A program made the translations under genes and the position numbers. DNA of 30,087 nucleotides from Nitrospinae bacterium RIFCSPLOWO2_12_FULL_45_22 (GTDB taxonomy: Bacteria > 2-12-FULL-45-22): assembly GCA_001803565.1 (NCBI GenBank), contig MHDQ01000222.1, positions 1-30,087 on the forward strand. The letters are read 5' to 3'. Below the pieces are notes generated by a model. It was not told the origin of the DNA, did no database searches, and saw only the letters and a list, made by a program, of their open reading frames with translations. Positions 8,388 to 27,524 of this stretch are shown in pieces (within the stretch, counting starts at the first letter, position 1; each line of letters starts with the position of its first letter).

Positions 8388-8681
8388 ATGGAAGCCTTAT
8401 TAGGAATAACAGGTGTTCTGGCGGCTATTCTTGGCCTTGTCCTTGCTTTTTATGCAGTCTTTGTTAATGGCCGGGCCAATAAAGAGATACTAAGGGAGAT
8501 ACAAAAAGGGACAGTGGAGATCCAAAAGGGGACGGTCGAGATGCAAAAAGGGACAGTGGAGATACAAAAGAGCGCTGAAAGACAGGTTCAGATACTTGAG
8601 AGGATAGAAGAGACGCAAAGACATATAGCAGAACTTGTCCGGATGGAAGGTGAAAAGACACGGTCCCTTATTAGCCGGTGA
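8388..8681 (+). CDS. Small membrane-anchored coiled-coil protein with heptad repeats
   Basis: This 97-residue protein of unknown function sits between leuC and leuD, 16 bases after the leuC stop. A GGAGGG ribosome site precedes the ATG. One N-terminal membrane helix (~4-26) is followed by four consecutive 7-residue units, E-I-Q-K-G-T-V or variants (residues 37-64), encoded by four 21-base direct repeats at 8496-8579. The rest (AERQVQILERIEETQRHIAELVRMEGEK) is charged and predicted to be coiled coil. The 7-residue period would continue a coiled-coil heptad. No link to leucine synthesis is evident. It may be a recent repeat expansion of a small membrane protein. Confidence 0.65.
   Translation: MEALLGITGVLAAILGLVLAFYAVFVNGRANKEILREIQKGTVEIQKGTVEMQKGTVEIQKSAERQVQILERIEETQRHIAELVRMEGEKTRSLISR
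8496..8579 (+). repeat. Four 21-base tandem repeats in a coding region
   Basis: The unit is GAGATACAAAAAGGGACAGTG. Copies start at 8496, 8517, 8538 and 8559. The first three differ by only a few bases and the fourth is diverged in its second half. The repeat keeps the reading frame and encodes EIQKGTV-like units. Confidence 0.9.
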
Positions 8682-11701: not shown

Positions 11702-12586
11702 ATGACTGAGGGAGAGATATTAGCACGGGATGCCTTTCTGTTATTATATGAGTTAAGACTCTTCTGGTTGATTGTTATCCTTTATCTACTGAGTTTTTTC
11801 TCTTACCTCGCCCACATCTTCACTCCTGAGTCCTCTTCTGGCCAATGGGCTAAGGGCCTTCTTAGTGCAGGGGTCTTGTTTCACACGGTGTTGATAATAT
11901 TTCGTACCATAGAAGGACAGAGCCCCCCTTTCCAAACCCTTTATGAGAGCTTATCCTGGTTTGCCTGGTCATCCATAGTTACTTACTTGTTTATAAGCCG
12001 ACGCTGGAGGGAGGTATATCTGCCAGGCATATGGGTTAGTGGTATAGCTTTAGCTGCTTGTCTGTATGCCCTTATAAGCCGGGGCCCGGAAATAACACCA
12101 CTAGCTCCAGCCCTCCAGAGCCAATGGTTTGTCTGGCATGTGGTCCTGGCCTTTATGTCTTATGCGGTCTTTGTAGTAAGCTGTGCTAACGAAATTACTT
12201 ACCTTATCATTTATCCCTGCTTGAAAAAAGGGATTGGTACTAGTTATGGCCTTTTATTAGAAAATATAGAAAAATTCCATGAGACTGCTTACCGCTTAGT
12301 ATTATTTGGATTTCCCTTGCTGACCTTTGGTATCATATCCGGGGCAGCATGGGCTGACGAGGCCTGGGGCCGATTCTGGTCCTGGGACCCCAAAGAGACC
12401 TGGTCATTAATAACCTGGACGGTCTTTGCCCTCTATTTACATGCCATGGTAATGCCTGCGTGGCGGGGTAAGCCCGCATCTATTTTTAATATCCTGGGTT
12501 TTATCTGTATGATAATGACCTTTGTGGGAGTGAACTGGCTGGCAAAACTATTAGGCATCGAGAGTTTACATTTATATGCTATTTAG
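11702..12586 (+). CDS. ccsA: Cytochrome c assembly protein CcsA/ResC
   Basis: This 294-residue polytopic membrane protein belongs to System II cytochrome c maturation. It presents haem to apocytochromes at the outer face of the membrane. About eight hydrophobic segments are visible. The tryptophan-rich WWD motif is intact at W222-K231 (WGRFWSWDPK), and candidate haem-ligating histidines are H61, H146 and H247. The gene overlaps resB by 11 bases. The order ccsA then resB is the reverse of the common resB-resC order. Presence of the pair implies that the organism makes c-type cytochromes. Confidence 0.92.
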   Translation: MTEGEILARDAFLLLYELRLFWLIVILYLLSFFSYLAHIFTPESSSGQWAKGLLSAGVLFHTVLIIFRTIEGQSPPFQTLYESLSWFAWSSIVTYLFISRRWREVYLPGIWVSGIALAACLYALISRGPEITPLAPALQSQWFVWHVVLAFMSYAVFVVSCANEITYLIIYPCLKKGIGTSYGLLLENIEKFHETAYRLVLFGFPLLTFGIISGAAWADEAWGRFWSWDPKETWSLITWTVFALYLHAMVMPAWRGKPASIFNILGFICMIMTFVGVNWLAKLLGIESLHLYAI

Positions 12587-14042
12587 GCCCTTACATTGTT
12601 TCTATGGGAAGTTTATCTCATTAAAAACTACCCTTATTTTTCTGGGCATCCTAATATTTTTTTACTTACTTGGGACTATCTTTCCCCAGGGCAAGGAATA
12701 TGCTTCGGACGGGGGAATCCTCCTGGCCATTATCAAATATCTGGACCTCCTAAACCTCTTTAGCTCACCCCTTTTCCTGCTCCTTTCGCTCCTGTTTTTT
12801 CTGCATCTAGGGCTCTGTACCTGGGAGCGGCTCCAGCACCTCTGGTCTAAACGACCGACAGCCAGCTTAGAGTTGGAAAAGGGCCAGTTAGTCTGTCAGA
12901 GCAAGACCATAATGCTTTCCTCTGGGCCGGCGACTAGCATGGATGCTATGAATAATATCTTTAAACAACTTGGGTTTCGGTCAGTAAAAGAAAGCCAGGA
13001 AGGTGAGACAGCAGTAATAGAAAAAGGATTATCCCATCACTGGCTCTCCCTGATCTATCATCTAGCCCTTTTTATTTGCCTTATCGGGTTCTTTATAACC
13101 TATCTCTTTGCCTTTGAAGGTGAGATAACCCTGCATCTACAGCAACGGCAGAAAGTCCCTGAACCTTCTTCTAAGCCTCGCTGGATCACTATACTGGAGG
13201 GGGTGAGGCTAAACCCTGGGCCGGTGCAGGGGTTGGAGCTAGAGTTAGAAAATTTTTCTACCGAGTATATCCAGCTAGCTAAACTCAACTACCCTAAGGA
13301 CTTTCTTGGCCGAATAGCCCTGGCTCTGGGCTTCTCTGCTCGTAAGCCCTTATATTCCGCTGATTCTAGCCTGTCCTATTTTCCTAAAGACTGGAAGAGT
13401 CATTTGACCCTCTATGATGAAGGTAAGCCGGTAAAAGAAAAGGCTATCGAAGTAAATGATCCCCTTCAATACCAGGGTCTTACCTTCTACCAGATGGCCT
13501 TCCAACAAGAGCTCAAACTGGTGATAGAAGCTAACCAGACCATAAGGGGAAAGGAAACGATCATATCGGTTAACTCAGGAGAAAAGTTTCGTCTGCCCCC
13601 ATTGCCGGGATATTTTAAGACCAGCACCTTACGCCTAGGGACCCTCTATAAAAAGGACGGAACCAAAGAAGATATTGTACCCTCAGCCAAGCTCTATTAT
13701 CTGGACCCAAAACCGGAAAAGGAACCAGTGGAGCTAGGCAGCTTAACCCTGAACCAGCCTTTGCCTTACCAGGGAATTTCTCTTACCCTGAGGGACTATT
13801 CTGAGGCCAGCATCCTGAGCTTCCGCTATGATCCGGGCAGACCCTGGCTCTGGCTGGCGTCGGTCTCGCTCTTGCTCTTCATGACGCTGCGGATCTGGGG
13901 TGGCTGGTATAGGGTCATATATTGGCTAGAGCGGGAAGCGGACGGTTGCTACCTACGCTATGTCTATAAAGGAATAGGGCTGGGAGCCGATGAAACCAGG
14001 CTCCTCACCCGCCTTAAACATTACCTGACTCAAAAAGAATAA
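12576..14042 (+). CDS. resB: Cytochrome c biogenesis protein ResB
   Basis: This 488-residue membrane protein forms the System II haem-handling complex with CcsA. Three hydrophobic segments lie in the first ~175 residues (around 13-35, 64-82 and 148-172). A large soluble domain follows (~175-420), then a final membrane helix (PWLWLASVSLLLFMTLRIWGG, ~425-445), matching the ResB layout. Family sequence is visible in DPLQYQGLTFYQMAFQQE and NQPLPYQGISLTLRDYSEASILSFRYDPGRPW. The start overlaps the end of ccsA, indicating translational coupling. Confidence 0.92.
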   Translation: MLFRPLHCFYGKFISLKTTLIFLGILIFFYLLGTIFPQGKEYASDGGILLAIIKYLDLLNLFSSPLFLLLSLLFFLHLGLCTWERLQHLWSKRPTASLELEKGQLVCQSKTIMLSSGPATSMDAMNNIFKQLGFRSVKESQEGETAVIEKGLSHHWLSLIYHLALFICLIGFFITYLFAFEGEITLHLQQRQKVPEPSSKPRWITILEGVRLNPGPVQGLELELENFSTEYIQLAKLNYPKDFLGRIALALGFSARKPLYSADSSLSYFPKDWKSHLTLYDEGKPVKEKAIEVNDPLQYQGLTFYQMAFQQELKLVIEANQTIRGKETIISVNSGEKFRLPPLPGYFKTSTLRLGTLYKKDGTKEDIVPSAKLYYLDPKPEKEPVELGSLTLNQPLPYQGISLTLRDYSEASILSFRYDPGRPWLWLASVSLLLFMTLRIWGGWYRVIYWLEREADGCYLRYVYKGIGLGADETRLLTRLKHYLTQKE

Positions 14043-14071: not shown

Positions 14072-14100
14072 TTTACAAACCTTTATACCTGCTATAAAAT
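14072..14100 (+). promoter_or_regulatory. Candidate promoter of the selenoprotein gene
   Basis: TTTACA (14072-14077) and TAAAAT (14095-14100) have a 17-base spacer. The ATG is at 14237, leaving a long leader that contains the inverted repeat at 14113-14159. Motif match only. Confidence 0.35.
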
Positions 14101-14159: not shown

Positions 14160-14236
14160 ACGATTAGTGACAGATGTGATGCTGATAGTGGATAAGGCTT
14201 TGTGGTTAGTTTAACCGAGAGAAAGGAGAGAATCTT

Positions 14237-14875
14237 ATGCTTAAAAAACAAGGCGTGATGAAATATCTGGTGGGGTTTTCCCTGGTTTTCGTTGTCCTAG
14301 TCCTTGTCTTATCCTCGAGGTACTGGCATAAAGGAGGTACGGTAGGATACTCTAGCCAAGAGGTTTCTAATTATTCCCGGGGCCCTGATAGTGCCCCGGT
14401 AGTCCTTAAAGAATTTAGTGATTATCAATGACCCCATTGCCGCGAGATCCAGGTCGTGGTGGATCGCTTATTCCAAAAATATCCGGGGCAGATAAGGTTG
14501 GTACTCTACCATATGCCCTGGAGTCCCAAATCCTCCCAGGCCGCCGAGGCATCCCTTTGTGCTGGACAAGAGGGCAAATTTTGGGAATATCATGAGCTAC
14601 TGTTTGATTATCAAGAACAATGGCCGGGGACTCCTCATCCAGAGGAATACTTCATCGGCTATGCGAAGCTTTTAGGCCTGGATCAGCAAAAGTTCCGCAC
14701 TTGCCTGGATTCTCAGGAGATGAGAGATAAGGTAAGTCAGGATAAAAGCTATGGTAAATCCATTAATATTAATACTACCCCTACTATATTTGTAAATGAT
14801 AGCCGGATAGTAGGGGACGAGCCTATTGAGAAATATGAACGGGCAATAGAGCAGGAACTGAGGAGAAGTGGATAG
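14237..14875 (+). CDS. DsbA-like thioredoxin-fold selenoprotein (Sec at TGA 14429-14431)
   Basis: Read through its one in-frame TGA, this gene encodes 212 residues: a signal anchor (~8-27), a short linker and a DsbA-family thioredoxin fold. The active site reads EFSDYQ-U65-P-H-C68-REI, where relatives have C-P-H-C or C-P-F-C, so the TGA falls exactly on the nucleophilic cysteine. The helical insert (SSQAAEASLCAGQEGKFWEYHELLF) and the cis-proline segment NINTTPTIFVND are intact, and the frame stays open on both sides, so this does not look like a decayed pseudogene. A candidate SECIS hairpin follows. AAAGGAG lies about 9 bases before the ATG. It should act outside the cytoplasmic membrane in thiol-disulfide exchange. 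Its neighbours ccsA-resB and a MauE-like protein suggest apocytochrome thiol reduction or disulfide chemistry. The main alternative is a TGC/TGT-to-TGA mutation or sequencing error. Confidence 0.85.
14432..14467 (+). promoter_or_regulatory. Candidate bacterial SECIS element
   Basis: Directly after the TGA, GATCC (14446-14450) and GGATC (14461-14465) form a perfect 5-pair stem around the 10-base loop AGGTCGTGGT. The loop begins about 20 bases after the TGA and has G as its second base. Known bacterial SECIS hairpins have a loop G in the first two positions and a spacing of roughly 16-37 bases. A competing fold pairs 14437-14445 with 14454-14462 (a 9-pair stem, several G-U) and has AGG at the 3' end of its loop. 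Either could bind SelB. It lies within the coding sequence, as in other bacterial selenoprotein genes. Confidence 0.6.
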
Positions 14876-15401
14876 GTTAGATAAAAGAACACAGAGCCAA
14901 GATAAAAGAACACAGACTGGTCTTAGCTCTTTGTTCTTAGCTCTTAGCTCTTTCTCTTTCATCGCTGCCTTCCTTTTCAGAATGGTGGTAGGGATAACTT
15001 TCCTTGTCTCCGGTTTTGCTAAGCTCCTTTTGCCTCCAGAAGAATTTATCCAGGTACTACGTAGCTACCAGGTTATCCCAGAGGTATTATTTAGTCCCCT
15101 TACCATATTACTGCCAGGGATCGAGCTATTAAGCGGGAGTTGTCTTATCCTGGGCTTTTTCACCCGAGCGGCTTCCATAGTCATTCTTATCCAGTTAGGT
15201 AGTTTTATAGCCCTTATGTCTGTCGTAATATTTTCAGGAATAGAGCTGAAAGAGTGCGGCTGTTTTGGCAGTCTCGGTATTCAGGAGACACCAGAACAGG
15301 TTATAATAAGAGATGCTATCCTGTTGATAATGGCCCTGGTCCTTCTTATTACTAATAAGCATAGATATGCCCTGGATAACCTGTTCGATGGTAGCGATTG
15401 A
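14868..15401 (+). CDS. MauE/DoxX-like redox-associated membrane protein
   Basis: This 177-residue protein has four hydrophobic segments after a hydrophilic start. The core matches the MauE/DoxX family: FRMVVGITFLVSGFAKLLLPPEEFIQVLRSYQVIP, then LPGIELLSGSCLILGFFTRAAS, then the cysteine motif KECGCFGSLG. Relatives are membrane partners of periplasmic thioredoxin-fold proteins. It overlaps the selenoprotein gene by 8 bases, so the pair is probably co-translated and functionally linked, for example as electron carrier and membrane reductant. Residues 3-26 are encoded by a direct and inverted repeat cluster, so the native start may lie later, or the repeat has been absorbed into the gene. It ends 4 bases before the convergent mtnA stop. 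Confidence 0.85.
   Translation: MDRLDKRTQSQDKRTQTGLSSLFLALSSFSFIAAFLFRMVVGITFLVSGFAKLLLPPEEFIQVLRSYQVIPEVLFSPLTILLPGIELLSGSCLILGFFTRAASIVILIQLGSFIALMSVVIFSGIELKECGCFGSLGIQETPEQVIIRDAILLIMALVLLITNKHRYALDNLFDGSD
14879..14953. repeat. Direct and inverted repeat cluster at the 5' end of the MauE-like gene
   Basis: AGATAAAAGAACACAGA occurs at 14879-14895 and again at 14900-14916. GGTCTTAGCTCTTTGTTCT, just downstream, is the approximate inverse of AGAACACAGAGCCAAGATA, and TTAGCTC itself is repeated. The cluster resembles the intergenic palindromes elsewhere in the window but lies inside a reading frame. Confidence 0.7.
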
Positions 15402-20550: not shown

Positions 20551-20706
20551 TAATATGATTGCAATTTGGCTGTTCTAAATATCCTTATTTTTCAATGACT
20601 TACGAGGAGTCAATTTATTCCGTTGGACTCATTTTGGGGTCATTTCGGGGTCATTTCGGACACGCTCACGCCATAGGGACGCCATAAAGTTCTGGGGCTA
20701 ATCCCT
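20551..20706. other. Junction-proximal non-coding region of the element
   Basis: The stretch is non-coding between the tRNA-Leu fragment and the first element gene. It contains three tandem 11-base units (20630-20662) and the partially inverted pair GGAGTCAA / TTGGACTC near 20606-20630. This is where recombinase arm sites and Xis sites normally lie. Confidence 0.5.
20630..20662. repeat. Three tandem 11-base units beside the attachment site
   Basis: CATTTTGGGGT (20630-20640), CATTTCGGGGT (20641-20651) and CATTTCGGACA (20652-20662). Spacing of 11 bases places them on roughly the same helix face. About 80 bases from the crossover point, they are candidate arm-type integrase or Xis binding sites. 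That role is inferred from position only. Confidence 0.55.
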
Positions 20707-20988
20707 TTATTTTTGCGCTTTTAGGGCACGGCGAGCGATATTTTGCAGTTCATTGTGGGAGAGAATATTTTGTTTGACCTTATAGTTTTTCCTATGCCGA
20801 TCCTTTAACCACTCAATCACGTCCAGGGGCATGAAACGCCACTCCTTGCCTATCTTGAATCCCGCTTGCATACCTAATCCCTCAGCTAGATAGTCCTGGA
20901 GGGTGTATTTGCTGACCCTCAAGTATGCTTTAAGTTCCTCAAAGGTCATGGGAAAATTAGGATCAACTGGTTGTCTGGTATCACACAT
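20707..20988 (-). CDS. Excisionase-like helix-turn-helix DNA-binding protein
   Basis: This is a 93-residue protein with an excisionase/MerR-type winged-helix domain (~16-58): MTFEELKAYLRVSKYTLQDYLAEGLGMQAGFKIGKEWRFMPLDVIEWLKDR. This is the common 'HTH_17' arrangement of recognition helix, K-x-G-x-x-W-R wing and final W-L. A basic tail follows. It is the element gene nearest the attachment site and the last of the packed minus-strand operon, so a recombination directionality factor is likely. A simple transcription regulator is the alternative. No strong ribosome site precedes the ATG. Confidence 0.75.
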   Translation of the reverse strand: MCDTRQPVDPNFPMTFEELKAYLRVSKYTLQDYLAEGLGMQAGFKIGKEWRFMPLDVIEWLKDRHRKNYKVKQNILSHNELQNIARRALKAQK

Positions 20989-21005
20989 AGATTATAAAAT
21001 CTTAT

Positions 21006-21719
21006 CTACTGGTACTCTTCTTCATACTCTTCATCTAAATCAACCAGCATCTCGCTATTCTCTTTCCCCACTTCTATAGCATTTTTTTGCTGCCCAGGAT
21101 TATTAAGTGTAAGCCGCATCTTGACCAAAACCCCTGGGCCCATACCCTCTCTTTTTTCTGCCTCCCCTAACCCAGACAACTGTGCCGCTAGCTTCATAGC
21201 CGCTATCCTATCCCCTGCATCCCCACCGACTTCACTGGCCATAATGGTCCTCCAGGCCTCGGTTTCTAAGGCTGCCTGTACAGCCTTCTTGCGCTTGGGG
21301 TCTTCCCATCTGGCCTTTTTATGGTGCCAGTTCCGATAGTAGGCATGATAGCCCAGGTCTTTAGACGTGATGTTAAAATAGTTATGCAGAACCGGGCTAG
21401 GAGTGCCTGCTATGTATAATTCCTCAAGTAGCTTGAGTTTATCGCTCTCAAGATTACACACAGAGCAAGTATCGGAGTTCTTACAGAAGTCTTTTCGGTA
21501 TTGTTCTATGACTGTCTGATTGCGAGAGGGGTTACAGGGGGGGGTAGCATGTGTCACCTGATTGTCGCCTTGATTGCTAGTTGTTGTCACCCGATCCTTA
21601 TAGGTCCCCATTTTTACCAGGACCCGCTTTATAGCATTAGGATAAGTGTTTAATTCCTTGGCTATGGCTTTGATGCCTTTACCTGCCCGATAGAGTATCA
21701 GAGCCTTTTCCTTATCCAT
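21006..21719 (-). CDS. Helix-turn-helix protein of unknown function
   Basis: This protein has about 237 residues. An N-terminal HTH (~1-40: KALILYRAGKGIKAIAKELNTYPNAIKRVLVKMG) resembles resolvase-type or small-terminase DNA-binding helices. It is followed by a polar linker, a cysteine pair (SDTCSVCN), and a second region with YIAGTPSPVLHNYFNITSKDLGYHAYYRNWHH that may be another HTH. The C-terminus is acidic. A phage small-terminase-like role is conceivable but not shown. The N-terminus is clearly related to that of the next upstream gene. The ATG at 21719 follows AAAGGATAGG. An in-frame ATG at 21737 lacks a ribosome site. Confidence 0.7.
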   Translation of the reverse strand: MDKEKALILYRAGKGIKAIAKELNTYPNAIKRVLVKMGTYKDRVTTTSNQGDNQVTHATPPCNPSRNQTVIEQYRKDFCKNSDTCSVCNLESDKLKLLEELYIAGTPSPVLHNYFNITSKDLGYHAYYRNWHHKKARWEDPKRKKAVQAALETEAWRTIMASEVGGDAGDRIAAMKLAAQLSGLGEAEKREGMGPGVLVKMRLTLNNPGQQKNAIEVGKENSEMLVDLDEEYEEEYQ

Positions 21720-21742
21720 TTTGCCTATCCTTTTCATATTTG

Positions 21743-22042
21743 CTATTTAGACAGAAGTTTTTGGAGAGCTATGATAGCTTCGTCTAATAAAGCGAAGTTA
21801 GAGTTATTGACCTGGTTATCAGAGGTATCACCTAAGCCCTCGATATTGGCTATTCTAGCTGATAACGGGTTATCGTCCTGGATACTGGTAGAGGTTATCA
21901 TTTCCTGGTTATGCCCTTGCAAAAGCCCCAATTTGATTAACCTCTTCCTTACTGCCGGCTGGCTAATGCCTAATTGCCTGGCTATCTCCCGTTGTCCCTT
22001 GCCTTGACGGTACAATTTTATTATTTCGTTATCCTGAATCAT
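21743..22042 (-). CDS. Small helix-turn-helix DNA-binding protein
   Basis: This 99-residue protein has a single resolvase/Trp-repressor-type HTH at residues ~1-42 (NEIIKLYRQGKGQREIARQLGISQPAVRKRLIKLGLL) and a short C-terminal tail. The ATG follows AAGGAGC by 7 bases and directly abuts the stop of the PC4-like gene. It shares its layout with the following gene (L-Y-R-x-G-K-G-x3-I-A, then a TS-x-Q-x-DN linker), so the two look like duplicated, then diverged genes. A regulator or DNA-binding partner of the element's replication proteins is plausible. Confidence 0.72.
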   Translation of the reverse strand: MIQDNEIIKLYRQGKGQREIARQLGISQPAVRKRLIKLGLLQGHNQEMITSTSIQDDNPLSARIANIEGLGDTSDNQVNNSNFALLDEAIIALQKLLSK

Positions 22043-22285
22043 TTAAAGCTCCTTTTTTTGTTGCTGAGTTAGGGCCTTATCCAGTGCCTGTATGGCTTTC
22101 TTTAGCTCTGGTAGTAATCCTATCGCCAGGGTTAAACCTTTCTTGGTGGGCCGCCAGTCCCCATCTTCCCGGTAATATAGGCGGATATCAAAATAGTCCT
22201 TCCCTTTGTATTCAGTCAAAGAGACCCGGACTACCTCAAGATCATTTTTCTGGATTTCAGCTACCAGCTTGTTTTCTTGGCTCAT
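22043..22285 (-). CDS. PC4/p15-like ssDNA-binding protein (YdbC type)
   Basis: This 80-residue protein has the transcriptional coactivator p15/PC4 fold: VVRVSLTEYKGKDYFDIRLYYREDGDWRPTKKGLTLAIGLLPELKKAIQAL covers the four-strand sheet and final helix. In bacteria and phages this fold usually binds single-stranded DNA. It lies in the same packed operon as the primase, so a role in protecting or presenting ssDNA during element replication is likely, though a transcriptional role cannot be excluded. A weak AGGGAT site precedes the ATG. Confidence 0.82.
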   Translation of the reverse strand: MSQENKLVAEIQKNDLEVVRVSLTEYKGKDYFDIRLYYREDGDWRPTKKGLTLAIGLLPELKKAIQALDKALTQQQKKEL

Positions 22286-22288
22286 AGT

Positions 22289-22429
22289 TTATATCCCTAT
22301 CTGGCTAATAATTCCTTGTAATCTGATTTGTTCCTGTTCTTCTGTTTCTTGCACTTGTGCCAAAAGCTCTAATGATTTCTTTTGAAGGCCCCCTCTCTTT
22401 TTTAGCCCTCTTGTTTTTACAATTGCCAT
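22289..22429 (-). CDS. Very small basic/acidic protein (46 aa)
   Basis: This short frame reads MAIVKTRGLKKRGGLQKKSL, then ELLAQVQETEEQEQIRLQG and a final IISQIGI. It has a basic N-terminal third and a helical, glutamine/glutamate-rich remainder. It fits exactly into the gap between the TubC-like gene and the PC4-like gene, 11 and 3 bases from them. All neighbours are equally tightly packed, which supports translation. A GAGG lies about 11 bases upstream of the ATG. No family is recognised. Confidence 0.5.
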   Translation of the reverse strand: MAIVKTRGLKKRGGLQKKSLELLAQVQETEEQEQIRLQGIISQIGI

Positions 22430-22440
22430 CCTTTTTAACC

Positions 22441-23052
22441 TCAATCTAGCCCTACATATTCGTCTTTGCCATTGTCCCGCCAGCGGAGGACATCACTATA
22501 CTGTTCTTTGAACCGACTCCACCAATCCTTAGTAGGCCCGTGCTGTAATACAATCCCCTGGGATATAGTCTTCCCTCGGTTGAGCAGGTCGAAGGCTACC
22601 AGGACATAATAGGTGTAATGTTTCCTGGATAAACCCTCAATGTCAGGTGCGACGTATCCATCCGGGTCAAAGCAATCAGGCCTAGGGGGAACGGATTTCT
22701 CTTGTTCACCCTTATTGTGGCTTCTATTCTCCTCTAACCATTTAAGCCGCTTTTGCCACCATGCAAGCAGATGTTTACACTCTTTGGCCTTGTATATGTA
22801 GCATGGCGGGTTACATTCTTCGGCAGGTACGGCCATTTCTTGCCATGAGCAGAATTTGGTCTGGGGAGTACGGGTAGCATCCTGAGCAGATAGAAAATCA
22901 ATGGCATCTTGCTTCCGAGACTTAAGTTCTTTTATTAAAGGCTCCGCCGCTATCCGGTTAGGCCGAATGCCAGGTAAAGGTTTAAGGCGAATATTTTCAC
23001 CATGTACATTTATCTGATAACCAAGCCCTTCAAGTGCTGCAATAACTTCCAT
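22441..23052 (-). CDS. Replication-associated protein with TubC-like N-terminal domain
   Basis: This protein has about 203 residues. Residues ~1-52 (MEVIAALEGLGYQINVHGENIRLKPLPG..LIKELKSRKQDAIDFLS) resemble the small TubC-like docking domain often found in phage and plasmid replication operons. The rest is unassigned. It has several cysteines (C-x-P-P-C-Y and KECKHLLAWW), and a C-terminal segment rich in aromatic residues. The ATG at 23052 lies 2 bases after the primase stop, with GAGGAG upstream. An in-frame ATG at 23082 would overlap the primase gene. Its position suggests that it works with the primase/helicase. Confidence 0.65.
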   Translation of the reverse strand: MEVIAALEGLGYQINVHGENIRLKPLPGIRPNRIAAEPLIKELKSRKQDAIDFLSAQDATRTPQTKFCSWQEMAVPAEECNPPCYIYKAKECKHLLAWWQKRLKWLEENRSHNKGEQEKSVPPRPDCFDPDGYVAPDIEGLSRKHYTYYVLVAFDLLNRGKTISQGIVLQHGPTKDWWSRFKEQYSDVLRWRDNGKDEYVGLD

Positions 23053-23053
23053 T

Positions 23054-25258
23054 TCAGATAACAATCTCCTCTTCTTCATCAAATAATATGTTGTCTACCC
23101 CTTCGGCAACATGTCCCTCTTGTCCCTCTTGTCCTAAACCATTATCAGTATTGGTTTCTGAGAGGGACATTTGTCTGGACATTAGGGACAAGTCATTATT
23201 TTGGCTATTACCGCATGACCCTATGGAAACGCTTATCTGAGCGTTATCTTGGACATTAGGGTCATTAGGGTTGACTTTTCTAACCCCGTGCTTCTCAAAA
23301 AGTTTTTCCATTTTTTCAGGGTCGATTATTCTCTGTCTGACATCAGAAGATTTCGCCGGTTGAATCCCTAATGCACTAAGCCGCATCCCTATCTTTTGGC
23401 TGCTCACTTGCCATTTCTCAGGAACACCCTCATTAACCATCTTTGTAATTTCCCCTACCTCGATCTTTCCATGCCGAATCTTATCCCAAAGCTTCGCTAT
23501 GGCCTCCAAAATCCTTCCATCTAGGGTTTCCCTCCTATCGTTTTTTCGCTGGGACTCTAACTCTTTAAGCACATTAATAAGGATGTTTTCTCGATCAGGA
23601 TTGACTAACCTGATGGTCTGAATAAGGGGACGGGCAATATCACCTAAACGACCATCAGTGGGTTTACTGGCTTGTGGTAACTCTTTATCCAAGCATCTTG
23701 CCCGGAAGGCCACGAGCCGTTCTTTAAGGGATAGGGCATCTTCAGGGGTGACATCATTTTCAAAGCGTCTAAAACTGTCCGGCATACTAATCTGAAGCGC
23801 CCGGCTCTGTAGGATCTGGCTCACCGGTTCATTGGTAGCTACGACCGTTGCCCCAAAAACGTTAAAATAAACTGTATCTCTATGAGCACCTCGCTCAGGA
23901 TAAAGCACCCGTGGGACACAAGCGCCTCTCTCATATCTGTGTAATAATAAATCCTCCGTCCCGTTTTTCTCGGCCTTACGCCACAAATCCAGGGTATCAA
24001 TGAAGAGAGTAGCGCAGTAATTATTAGCAACTCTAACTAGGTAGGCATCTCTTAAAGATTCAACATGAATACCTCGATAAGCAACATAAATCAATCCTTT
24101 ACCGGTGCGGCTTTTCCCCCGCTCCGGGACTGCAAAAAGGTAAAGATAAGGTGAGTATTGAACCTGCTCTAGCAGATAAGTATGAAAATCCCAGGTGGCT
24201 AATAAGTCATAATAGGAATCGCTGGGCAGCTCTGATATGCCCCTATGATAAGTAATCAGATCATTATAAAGGGCTTGATCACTATCTTCTTTGTAAAAGC
24301 GCAAAACCATATCTGCCCGGGGCACCAACCAAGGTATTTTGTCCTTTGGTGGGGGTAAGTAGCAGATCCCCTCTAGCTCAACCTGGCTTAATATTTTTAA
24401 CCCGCGACTTTCTTTAACTAGAAAAGCAGGTTTGTCGTCGTATTCGACAATGTCTACTAAGCCTGGGAATAGCGCCGTATAATTCTCCTTAGCTTCCGTA
24501 GTGACTTTGGCATCTTTCTTCCAGTTCTTATACCATTTTTTAACTTGCCCGAAAGCTGAATGATCAAGGGTTATTAATCTTAGCTTCTTTAGTCCCTCTA
24601 CACCCTCTGCTACCAAGAAATCGTCTATGCCTTGTTTTTCTGCCCCCCGCTGGGGTATAACTGCTATCTTGGCATTAGCCCCGCGGTTCTCTAATTCTTT
24701 TGCAAAAACATAAAGAGCCTGCAACGCAGAAGGGTTGGCCCATATATCGCTATCGAAATATATCGTCTCTTCTCTATCTACGTGAGCGATTCTGTCTATC
24801 TCTGCGATTGCTTCCTTTGTGTCAGAAGCCGTCCAGTTCCAAATCCCGCCAAGCCCAATACAGGGGATTCCCTCCTGGCACCCTTTAAGAGCCTTCTTTT
24901 CGCCCTCCGTCCAGGCCAGAGGGATAGAGGGGTCTTTTAACACCTCTTGAACCGGGTGAGGGATGTAAAGATGAACTCCAGAACCTGAAGCCTGATAGTA
25001 GCGCATTGTGTGCCCATTTTTAATTTGCAGGGGTGGAAACAACTTAAATCTTGTAAAGCCATTACAGCCGGGATAGGGAAAGGCAAGAAGGGATTTTAGC
25101 TCAGGGGGGTCCCATCCGATTATTCTTTTGATCTCACCGGGGCATACGCTATAGATACCATGTTGCGCTATAGTTTCATCCGATAAGCCACTCTGACGCA
25201 CGTCGGCTAAATGGGCTGGGTGTACTTTTGATTCTATATTGGATGGGTCAGATCGCAT
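23054..25258 (-). CDS. Primase/helicase-like replication protein (DUF3854 TOPRIM + ATPase)
   Basis: This 734-residue protein is the largest of the element. The N-terminus (VHPAHLADVRQSGLSDETIAQHG) matches the usual opening of DUF3854 primase-like proteins. A TOPRIM-type region follows: WTEGEKKALKGC..GIPCIGLGG (~117-143), then IYFDSD (~171-176) and GIDDFLV. A second half (~345-560) looks like a helicase-type ATPase with PERGKSRTGKGLIYV at the nucleotide-loop position and ATNEPVSQ-like sensor sequence. The loop has GKSRTGKG where GxxxxGK[ST] is expected, so ATPase activity is uncertain. The ATG at 25258 has GAGGG 8 bases upstream. It probably initiates element replication. Confidence 0.78.
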   Translation of the reverse strand: MRSDPSNIESKVHPAHLADVRQSGLSDETIAQHGIYSVCPGEIKRIIGWDPPELKSLLAFPYPGCNGFTRFKLFPPLQIKNGHTMRYYQASGSGVHLYIPHPVQEVLKDPSIPLAWTEGEKKALKGCQEGIPCIGLGGIWNWTASDTKEAIAEIDRIAHVDREETIYFDSDIWANPSALQALYVFAKELENRGANAKIAVIPQRGAEKQGIDDFLVAEGVEGLKKLRLITLDHSAFGQVKKWYKNWKKDAKVTTEAKENYTALFPGLVDIVEYDDKPAFLVKESRGLKILSQVELEGICYLPPPKDKIPWLVPRADMVLRFYKEDSDQALYNDLITYHRGISELPSDSYYDLLATWDFHTYLLEQVQYSPYLYLFAVPERGKSRTGKGLIYVAYRGIHVESLRDAYLVRVANNYCATLFIDTLDLWRKAEKNGTEDLLLHRYERGACVPRVLYPERGAHRDTVYFNVFGATVVATNEPVSQILQSRALQISMPDSFRRFENDVTPEDALSLKERLVAFRARCLDKELPQASKPTDGRLGDIARPLIQTIRLVNPDRENILINVLKELESQRKNDRRETLDGRILEAIAKLWDKIRHGKIEVGEITKMVNEGVPEKWQVSSQKIGMRLSALGIQPAKSSDVRQRIIDPEKMEKLFEKHGVRKVNPNDPNVQDNAQISVSIGSCGNSQNNDLSLMSRQMSLSETNTDNGLGQEGQEGHVAEGVDNILFDEEEEIVI

Positions 25259-25269
25259 AACTATTACCC

Positions 25270-25503
25270 TCAAAGATTACGAGTTAAAGCTTTTATGTCC
25301 TTTATCGCGTTAATAAAAGACCGGATCTCCACCAAGCCGCCGTTATAGAATGTCTTATGCAACTCCTTACGACGAGGGGTTTCTTCAAAGAAAAAATTAA
25401 CCCTTCGGGGGTCTTGGGTGTCTCTCGCATAATCAACAACCGGCAGTCCATGAGATTTGAGGTAGGCTGTTAGATAAAGGTCTGAGGTGCTGTATAATTG
25501 CAT
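25270..25503 (-). CDS. DUF5659-like small protein
   Basis: This 77-residue protein begins MQLYSTSDLYLTAYLKSHGLPVVDYAR, which resembles DUF5659 proteins often found next to DUF3854 primases. The middle (RRVNFFFEETPRRKELHKTFYNGG) is basic and aromatic, and the C-terminus (VEIRSFINAIKDIKALTRNL) helical. GGGAG lies 9 bases before the ATG. It ends 11 bases before the primase start. Function is unknown; a primase accessory role is inferred from position. Confidence 0.72.
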   Translation of the reverse strand: MQLYSTSDLYLTAYLKSHGLPVVDYARDTQDPRRVNFFFEETPRRKELHKTFYNGGLVEIRSFINAIKDIKALTRNL

Positions 25504-25545
25504 AGAGATACTCCCATAAATCTTTTTATTTTTGTGGATAAAATC

Positions 25546-25677
25546 TTATCGGCAGACATAGACTACCATCTTGCACACCTCGGCTAAATGGGCTGGGTGG
25601 AGTTTTCCGCTAGGATTTATCAAGCGCATATTCCCCCACCCTTTTCCCCGTGAATCCCACAAAGCAAAAGTTCTCAT
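25546..25677 (-). CDS. Small 43-aa protein sharing a motif with the primase N-terminus
   Basis: The frame starts with an ATG that overlaps the upstream XRE-like stop as ATGA, and reads MRTFALWDSRGKGWGNMRL, then INPSGKLHPAHLAEVCKMVVY and VCR. The phrase KLHPAHLAEV mirrors KVHPAHLADV in the primase, and the DNA repeat TCGGCTAAATGGGCTGGGTG (plus strand) is identical in both. It may be a tiny genuine gene or a remnant of a primase N-terminal duplication. Its overlap with the preceding gene favours translation. Confidence 0.4.
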   Translation of the reverse strand: MRTFALWDSRGKGWGNMRLINPSGKLHPAHLAEVCKMVVYVCR

Positions 25678-25826
25678 CTGAACAACTCACTCTTTTTAGT
25701 CTGAAGAATCTTTGCAATCCGGGCTTTAACAGATTCAGGCATGGGCATCAATCCCCTGACCATCTTACTAAAGTTGCCCTCAGCAATGGCAAGCCTATGG
25801 GCCAATTCACCTAGTGTATCTATCAA
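25674..25826 (-). CDS. Small XRE/Cro-like helix-turn-helix protein (50 aa)
   Basis: Starting at a TTG placed directly after the MerR-like stop, the 50 residues read as a compact Cro/CI-type HTH: LGELAHRLAIAEGNFSKMVRG is helix 1-turn-recognition helix, followed by ESVKARIAKILQTKKSELF, the typical closing helices. The start is TTG without a separate ribosome site, consistent with translational coupling to the gene above. It was probably missed because of its size. With the MerR-like gene it forms a likely regulatory pair at the head of the replication operon. Confidence 0.65.
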   Translation of the reverse strand: MIDTLGELAHRLAIAEGNFSKMVRGLMPMPESVKARIAKILQTKKSELFR

Positions 25827-26012
25827 TCATCTAATCCGCTCTAAGTTTAAGTACTTTAGAAGTTTTTCACACTCAGATAGCGCAAAACGCCGGTGTCCAT
25901 TCCTATCCCGTTGCGCAGAGATTATCCCAGCCCGCTCTAAATTTCTTACAGTGTCTGGATGTATCCCTGCCTCCGCAGCCATCTCCGCTACTCGATAAAA
26001 CTTCTTTTTCAT
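25827..26012 (-). CDS. MerR-like DNA-binding protein
   Basis: This 61-residue protein is essentially one MerR-type winged-helix domain: KFYRVAEMAAEAGIHPDTVRNLERAGIISAQRDRNGHRRFALSECEKLLKYL, with the diagnostic D-x-N-G-x-R-R-F wing. There is no effector or dimerisation domain, as in excisionase-like or phage MerR proteins. The ATG at 26012 follows GGGGGGT by about 7 bases. An in-frame ATG at 26039 is less likely. It is the first gene of the packed operon running down to 20707 and probably controls it. Confidence 0.78.
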   Translation of the reverse strand: MKKKFYRVAEMAAEAGIHPDTVRNLERAGIISAQRDRNGHRRFALSECEKLLKYLNLERIR

Positions 26013-26191
26013 AAATATTACCCCCCGGGGATTTCTCATCTTGGGTTTCTTGTCTAAATCTAATGATTTACCTCGATTTTAAAGCAAAAAAAATTTTTGA
26101 GCAGAGTATCAGATAAGAAATAAGGGGGGACTTATGGAGCCTTATCCAGACGGGTTTTTAGAAAAACATCGGGGGGGGTAGACAATGAAAA

Positions 26192-27430
26192 TTATTCTTT
26201 ATTTAACGCGGTGCTAATCAGTTCCTCAGCCTTAACTACATAGTAACAGGCCCGGACTATAAGGGCTATTAGCCCTTTACTTTTCTTCGAGGGGTTTTGT
26301 CCATAAAATTTATCTTCAGCCTCCTTTACTGCTTTCGCCTTCGGTATTCCCTTAGCAATCAGGCTTTCAGCATATCTCTTACATTCTTCTTGTTTTGCCA
26401 CCAGTTCATTATATTCATCATCTGTGGGAATCCGATCCCAAACCTTATTAATAGGTTGATTCTTTTTCTCTAACCTGGCGTATTCCTTAGGCCATAATAT
26501 CTTAGCAATTTCTGGATAACTCTTTTCCTCCTGGCGCAAATCCCATGCTTTGTAATATTTTTGGTGGTCTCTGAACCTAGTCCCAGAGCTTTTAAACCGT
26601 TTCGCTACCTGCTCTTTTATCTGATTTATCAACTCCTTCCGGGGCACCAGATCAAGGTCAAATTCTAAAATTAAATGGCCATCATCTCTTATTTCGCACA
26701 TAGTAATAGCATTAGCCTCTACATCTCTCAGGAATTTTTTAGTTGCTTTACCAGGCCTGAACCTTACTATTTGGCCAGCTATTTGATACAGTAGTTGCTC
26801 CAGGGTCATACCAAGGGATAAGTGGATGTCTAACTTCAAGTATCTACCTTCCCTTAACTCCTCGTAAACTGGGGTTTTCTCCCAATCAAACTCCTCATCC
26901 CCTATAAACCCTTTAAACCCTTCAATGCCTTCAAGGGGGGAAGGGTTAGCAGAGATTACCTTTACATTTACCGGCGGTTTAACAAAGATAGGGTCAGTAG
27001 TAAAAATCTCTTTAGGATATTCCTGGTAGGGGTCTAAGGGGTAGAAAATATCAAAACCAGCCCTTATTTCTTCCTGAATAGTGGCTATTTCTCCCTCAAT
27101 AATTCCTATTTCTGTCTCAATATCTCTTATACGTGGTTCAATATTCTTTATTCCCCTTTTTGATACCGAAAGAGGTAAGGGGGCCAGGAAAAGCTCAGGG
27201 GAGCGACTTCGTAGTTTCTCCGAAGCGAGGCAGAAAAAGCGGGTTGTATAAAACCCTAAACGGTCTTCTAATCTTTGATGCTTGTTTTTCTTTTCTTGAA
27301 GCCTACCCTCTGCTTCCTGAAGCCTCTCCCATAATCTCCGATACTCACCATGCCTCTTTATCCTTTCCCATCGGTCATAATTAAACTCAATTAAGTATCG
27401 CTTAAGGTCATCCTTAGCCCTTTTTGCCAT
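26192..27430 (-). CDS. Unknown 412-aa protein with N-terminal coiled coil and C-terminal HTH-like region
   Basis: The product is unrecognised. Residues ~25-60 (RRLWERLQEAEGRLQEKKNKHQRLEDRL) and ~90-122 are coiled-coil-like. A middle region (~125-260) has mixed strands and helices. The segment KAWDLRQEEKSYPEIAKILWPKEYARLEKK (~295-325) resembles a small DNA-binding helix-turn-helix seen in element-encoded regulators. The C-terminus is basic (YGQNPSKKSKGL) and ends in a hydrophobic helix. AAGGAGAG lies 8 bases before the ATG at 27430. A structured leader motif lies about 50 bases upstream. A DNA-binding or structural element protein is the most that can be said. Confidence 0.65.
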   Translation of the reverse strand: MAKRAKDDLKRYLIEFNYDRWERIKRHGEYRRLWERLQEAEGRLQEKKNKHQRLEDRLGFYTTRFFCLASEKLRSRSPELFLAPLPLSVSKRGIKNIEPRIRDIETEIGIIEGEIATIQEEIRAGFDIFYPLDPYQEYPKEIFTTDPIFVKPPVNVKVISANPSPLEGIEGFKGFIGDEEFDWEKTPVYEELREGRYLKLDIHLSLGMTLEQLLYQIAGQIVRFRPGKATKKFLRDVEANAITMCEIRDDGHLILEFDLDLVPRKELINQIKEQVAKRFKSSGTRFRDHQKYYKAWDLRQEEKSYPEIAKILWPKEYARLEKKNQPINKVWDRIPTDDEYNELVAKQEECKRYAESLIAKGIPKAKAVKEAEDKFYGQNPSKKSKGLIALIVRACYYVVKAEELISTALNKE

Positions 27431-27481
27431 TACCATCTCTCCTTATGGTTCTCCATTAAGGGAAAAAGACCCCAGGCGGGT

Positions 27482-27524
27482 GGAGATTGCCCGCTCTTCG
27501 CCCTGCAGAAAGCTAGGGGCCTCC
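27482..27524 (-). promoter_or_regulatory. Structured leader motif, copy 1
   Basis: On the minus strand GGAG + GCCC pairs with GGGC + CUCC across an AAU bulge, enclosing CUAGCU..CUGCAG..GCGAAGAGC. The same motif with a base-pair change (A-U for G-C) is found at 29265-29305, also just upstream of a minus-strand gene. It is probably a 5' leader RNA element, but no known riboswitch class is recognised. Confidence 0.5.

Follow-up and report, generated by a model that had tools for sequence, protein, structure and literature searches.

Gene order and reading frame at the locus

The window, by which we mean the whole stretch of DNA analyzed here (30,087 nucleotides from Nitrospinae bacterium RIFCSPLOWO2_12_FULL_45_22), carries the gene order ccsA-resB-dsbA(Sec)-mauE on its plus strand. 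The first two genes encode System II cytochrome c biogenesis proteins, one of the CcsA/CcsB type (positions 11702 to 12586; TIGR03144, 210 bits) and one of the ResB family (12576 to 14042; profile match), and the last encodes a MauE/DoxX-family membrane protein with an ECGCFG motif (14868 to 15401; Pfam MauE, E = 3e-20). Upstream of mauE, and overlapping it by 8 bases, lies a DsbA-like gene (14237 to 14875, plus strand) that, judged from its sequence, is almost certainly a selenoprotein gene. Its predicted product of 212 amino acids, here called Sec-DsbA, would have selenocysteine (Sec) at position 65; an AGGAG lies at 14224 to 14228, 8 bases 5′ of the ATG.

The frame contains a single internal stop, the TGA of codon 65 (14429 to 14431), and its terminal codon is TAG. 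The translated motif around the TGA reads KEFSDYQ-U-PHC, with the TGA at the first position of a CPHC-type motif, and the stop-free run 3′ of it is 147 codons long (chance of ~3e-4 at the stop frequency of the window). Homology spans both sides of the TGA in comparisons with profiles and with the sequences of solved structures. The read-through protein matches Pfam Thioredoxin_4 (PF13462; E = 2.1e-26, 93.5 bits versus a cutoff of 23.2) and Pfam DSBA (PF01323; E = 3.9e-17, 63.1 bits versus a cutoff of 25.6), both in matches that cross the TGA. A preliminary description of this DNA had placed the TGA on the nucleophilic cysteine of a CxxC thioredoxin-fold motif, in a frame that stays intact downstream, and had predicted that gene callers would break the gene there. 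These claims are borne out, the last by a standard open reading frame (ORF) list, which splits the gene at the TGA into ORFs of 64 and 139 codons.

Sec-DsbA is predicted to consist of an N-terminal membrane anchor helix followed by a probable DsbA/thioredoxin fold with U65-P-H-C68 and a cis-Pro-type loop, TP182; the TP at 181 to 182 is present in every full-length TGA form. Its predicted structure has a DsbA-like order of helices and strands, and Foldseek matched the model to DsbA chains at E values of ~1e-8 but with TM-scores of only ~0.4. The nearest solved relatives by sequence are the corynebacterial DsbA/TsdA proteins (4PWP and 7UNN) and Bacillus subtilis BdbD (PDB 3EU3), which are CxxC proteins, unlike the UxxC protein of the window. 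As a separate observation, Cys 108 and Cys 156 of the window protein (14558 to 14560 and 14702 to 14704) are present or absent jointly across more than 200 homologs, which suggests that some members of the family have a structural disulfide here.

Distribution of Sec and Cys forms among homologs

A search of ~500 genomes and of contigs from named genomes yielded 233 DsbA matches. The domain is interrupted by an in-frame TGA in 26 distinct genes, including that of the window (27 rows, with L180 and L195 being one gene that was counted once). In all 26, the TGA occupies the nucleophile codon and the resolving Cys is kept. The only other TGA among the collected matches, in L058, is that gene's own end, and the remaining matches are Cys forms. 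Aligning homologs at position 65, as the preliminary description had suggested, shows that any TGA within the domain is confined to this one catalytic position. Among the Entotheonella-order genomes searched, the TGA form was found in four of four, two of them (L062 and L063) being Candidatus Entotheonella. When Sec and Cys are placed on a tree of 116 proteins, seven changes are required. Seven core loci pair the dsbA gene with mauE; their grouping on the tree is weakly supported (56/16), and they come from three lineages only.

Evidence for a SECIS element and for Sec machinery

The candidate bacterial SECIS hairpin lies at 14446 to 14465 on the plus strand, with a stem at 14446 to 14451 and 14460 to 14465 and a loop, GGUCGUGG, at 14452 to 14459. 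The sequence GAUCCA-(GGUCGUGG)-UGGAUC places the start of the loop 20 nucleotides 3′ of the UGA. The published bSECIS model allows a loop of 3 to 9 nucleotides, a stem of 4 to 16 bp, and a UGA-to-loop distance of 16 to 37 nucleotides, and it requires that one of the two leading loop bases be a G (PMC13188914). The hairpin agrees with this model, having a 6-bp stem, an 8-nucleotide loop beginning with GG, and a 20-nucleotide spacing, so the bSECIS check that had been proposed for the region 3′ of the TGA comes out in its favor. The preliminary description had reported a hairpin ~20 bases after the TGA, as in bacterial SECIS elements, with an AGGU loop; its position and conservation stand, but the "AGGU loop" is in fact the last A of the stem followed by the loop bases GGU.

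Taking every TGA of the window, ~4% are followed by an equally good G-loop hairpin, so that the hairpin is only moderately unusual and on its own would not be convincing. Its folding z-score is about −1.3, and the minimum-energy fold of longer stretches favors a competing hairpin at ~14439 to 14460. Because plain folding prefers this different hairpin, we relied on covariation, using a gap-free alignment of eight related TGA genes over 45 bases starting with the TGA. In this alignment, the hairpin (columns 18 to 23 and 32 to 37, corresponding to 14446 to 14451 and 14460 to 14465) has 97.9% of its cells paired, and sliding the hairpin partner lowers pairing to 27 to 40%. Two stem pairs show double-sided changes (C-G, A-U, G-C, and G-U in one; C-G and G-C in the other), and the covariation score was reached by 0 of 500 shuffles. 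A covariance model (R1) built from the seven other sequences, leaving out the window and the TGA codon, has its top match in the whole window at 14441 to 14473 (19.4 bits, E = 0.006), the next match scoring 8.8 bits (E = 2.8). The strength of the case is this covariation together with the held-out covariance model, by which the hairpin is conserved through compensatory changes. An Rfam scan of the window returned two tRNAs and an int-alpA RNA only, with no SECIS match; this silence does not count against the element because bacterial SECIS elements are too variable.

The genome that holds the window is a draft of 3.67 Mb in 321 contigs, is 85% complete, and belongs to a phylum represented by only two species in the genome collection used. 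A search of it for selA, selB, selC, and selD, which the preliminary description had named as a check, found all four, in favor of a selenoprotein. The tRNA-Sec scores 75.3 bits against an Rfam gathering cutoff of 47 and is corroborated by ARAGORN, with the anticodon TCA. The selA (588 bits) and selB (372 bits) genes are adjacent on contig C264, and selD (401 bits) has its own in-frame TGA in GGT-GGT-TGA-GCC-TGC-AAG (GG-U-ACK motif), where SelD proteins usually carry Sec.

Relation to known selenoprotein families

DsbA-like UxxC selenoproteins have been catalogued since 2006 (PMC1794560), again in 2008 as DsbA 1-3 (PMC2398784), and in a 2026 review (PMC13188914), the names given being DsbA-like, "DsbA 1/2," and "DsbA-like protein form 1," respectively. 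They are an established class, as the preliminary description had held, and the window gene is a further member. It shares with the catalogued proteins (PF01323) the DsbA family, Sec as the nucleophile of UxxC, a SECIS element directly 3′, and a scattered occurrence in bacteria and metagenomes. It differs in belonging to a UPHC subgroup that combines a membrane anchor with a MauE encoded just 3′ of it, whereas the catalogues give the family only; we found no description of this subgroup in the open-licence literature. The best curated model for Sec-DsbA and its relatives is NF041057, the Rcas_1661 thioredoxin-like (seleno)lipoprotein (111.3 bits), a family of UxxC selenoproteins described as DsbG-like in PMC13188914. 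Sec-DsbA falls below the cutoff of that model (190 bits), has no lipobox that we could see, and forms a separate subgroup.

Two side observations concern other Sec-containing thioredoxin-fold proteins. The window genome encodes a second DsbA-like selenoprotein, of the UPFC type and most similar to the Rcas_1661 (seleno)lipoprotein family, on contig C282 (L056, 8609 to 9421). A second cluster of the 2-oxoacid:ferredoxin oxidoreductase-like type lies near it, and genomes G074 (L057) and G102 (L158) have UPFC proteins of this type as well. Short U-P-W-C matches with a TGA (L150 and L151) were seen in two Entotheonella-order genomes and possibly belong to another Sec thioredoxin-fold family.

MauE as a candidate redox partner

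MauE lies directly 3′ of the TGA gene in the window lineage, in all four genomes from the Entotheonella order, and at L053 and L192, which come from two genomes of a third phylum. A more distantly related UPFC gene (L187) has the same 3′ neighbor, and MauE also lies beside one Cys form (L084). Among the collected matches, and with kinship ignored, this adjacency was found in 8 TGA forms versus 1 of 206 other forms. By contrast with MauE, neither ccsA nor resB was found in the neighborhood of the six remaining core genes or of the more distant pair, so the link to both is confined to the window: the G095 copy, for example, has an enolase-like gene after it, and in G074 the copy sits between lytB on its 5′ side and a ferritin-like gene on its 3′ side (enolase and ferritin being named by eye from the sequence). 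Because MauE recurs 3′ of TGA genes while ccsA and resB do not, the conserved partnership of Sec-DsbA is, on gene-neighborhood grounds, with MauE and not with cytochrome c maturation. The role beside a cytochrome c maturation operon to which the preliminary description had pointed is accordingly an association local to the window genome, and a partnership of that kind beyond this genome is unsupported. We found no description of the Sec-DsbA/MauE pairing in the open-licence literature, where absence is weak evidence.

The MauE model has an N-terminal helix followed by four long helices, the last two of which are joined by a loop that carries the CGC motif; CGCFG does not vary among the six aligned MauE proteins. 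By the positive-inside rule, the CGC loop would lie on the outer side of the membrane, which is also where DsbB has its second redox loop. Foldseek with the MauE model gave nothing below an E value of 0.8, and a sequence search of the PDB with the MauE profile gave no match. Neither DsbB (PF02600) nor VKOR (PF07884) has a match in the genome, an absence that is weak given its 85% completeness; one CcdA homolog is present.

Known pairings offer partial parallels. BdbD works with the DsbB-type BdbC and not with MauE. In methylamine utilization clusters, the thioredoxin-fold protein MauD is encoded together with MauE, presumably to help an exported enzyme form its disulfides. Unlike Sec-DsbA, MauD belongs to another thioredoxin-fold family and has no Sec, and no mau structural genes were seen in the window.

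The best overall explanation of these data, and a highly probable one, is a membrane-anchored, outward-facing DsbA-fold thiol oxidoreductase that contains Sec and has its UGA decoded by way of the hairpin, with MauE as a tentative partner. In this scheme, the UGA at 14429 would be decoded by Sec-tRNA and SelB under the direction of the hairpin at 14446 to 14465. The DsbA domain, by analogy with its family, would face outward and exchange disulfides with exported proteins through U65-P-H-C68, and MauE would use its CGC cysteines to relay electrons between the membrane and the U65-C68 couple, taking the place of DsbB or VKOR. It is from the outer-side CGC loop and the lack of a DsbB or VKOR match, along with the gene pairing, that MauE is proposed as the recycler; that it is the dedicated membrane redox partner of Sec-DsbA is a tentative suggestion. 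We lean slightly toward MauE reoxidizing Sec-DsbA rather than reducing it. A two-gene extracytoplasmic redox relay, with MauE standing in for DsbB or VKOR as the recycler of a Sec-containing DsbA, is likewise conceivable for deep-branching bacteria, those of the Entotheonella order among them, and we put it forward with reserve. Should MauE indeed recycle Sec-DsbA, it would join DsbB and VKOR as another way of driving extracytoplasmic disulfide exchange from the membrane. The pairing offers a testable approach to the function of MauE/DoxX proteins, and the locus adds a well-supported selenoprotein, one whose gene is split in two at the TGA by standard gene callers.

Alternative explanations

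Sec-DsbA could well be a real selenoprotein whose physiological redox partner is something other than MauE, with the neighbor present for another reason. MauE adjacency is absent in 18 of the 26 TGA forms, so the family can work without it; what speaks against this reading is that mauE follows immediately, overlapping or nearly so, at the seven core loci, drawn from three lineages, and at one distant locus.

It is unlikely, if possible, that the selenoprotein acts in System II as a reductant or isomerase that keeps the CXXCH thiols of apocytochromes reduced, in the manner of ResA/CcsX and with electrons from MauE or CcdA. Sec generally lowers the redox potential and so suits reductive or isomerase roles, and the gene order in the window and the CcdA homolog in the genome fit such a role. 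Against it, the family is DsbA rather than TlpA/ResA, ccsA and resB do not accompany the other core members or the distant pair, and resB is separated from the dsbA gene by 194 bases that contain a promoter-like site at 14072 to 14100 (such matches being near chance level). A role of Sec-DsbA in cytochrome c maturation is thus possible but not favored over the one proposed with MauE.

Readings that deny the selenoprotein altogether fare far worse. A misread TGC or TGT, or a recent nonsense mutation producing a pseudogene, might be entertained for a single draft genome, in which a TGA is one step from either Cys codon; we rejected this very improbable explanation because the same residue is encoded by a TGA in 25 further genes, spread over many lineages and assemblies, and the conserved hairpin and full Sec machinery also oppose it. 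Genome-wide reading of UGA as a sense codon, such as Trp, could account for one in-frame TGA but has a negligible probability and was rejected, since the TGA sits on a catalytic Cys and not on a Trp, a scan of the window found no other conserved gene broken by a TGA, and tRNA-Sec (TCA) and SelB are present.

Other features of the window

Some features of the window lie apart from the dsbA-mauE locus. A phage-type tyrosine integrase gene (113 to 1361) stops 6 bases short of a tRNA-Gly/tRNA-Cys pair, an arrangement like that at the boundary of an integrated element. A probable mobile element at 20700 to 27520 encodes, on the minus strand, small DNA-binding proteins and a large primase/helicase-like protein (functions assigned by eye), together with the int-alpA RNA found by Rfam (27453 to 27523). 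Between two leuC/leuD-like isopropylmalate dehydratase genes, positions 8388 to 8681 encode a 97-amino-acid protein with a repeated EIQKGTVE unit and no Pfam match.
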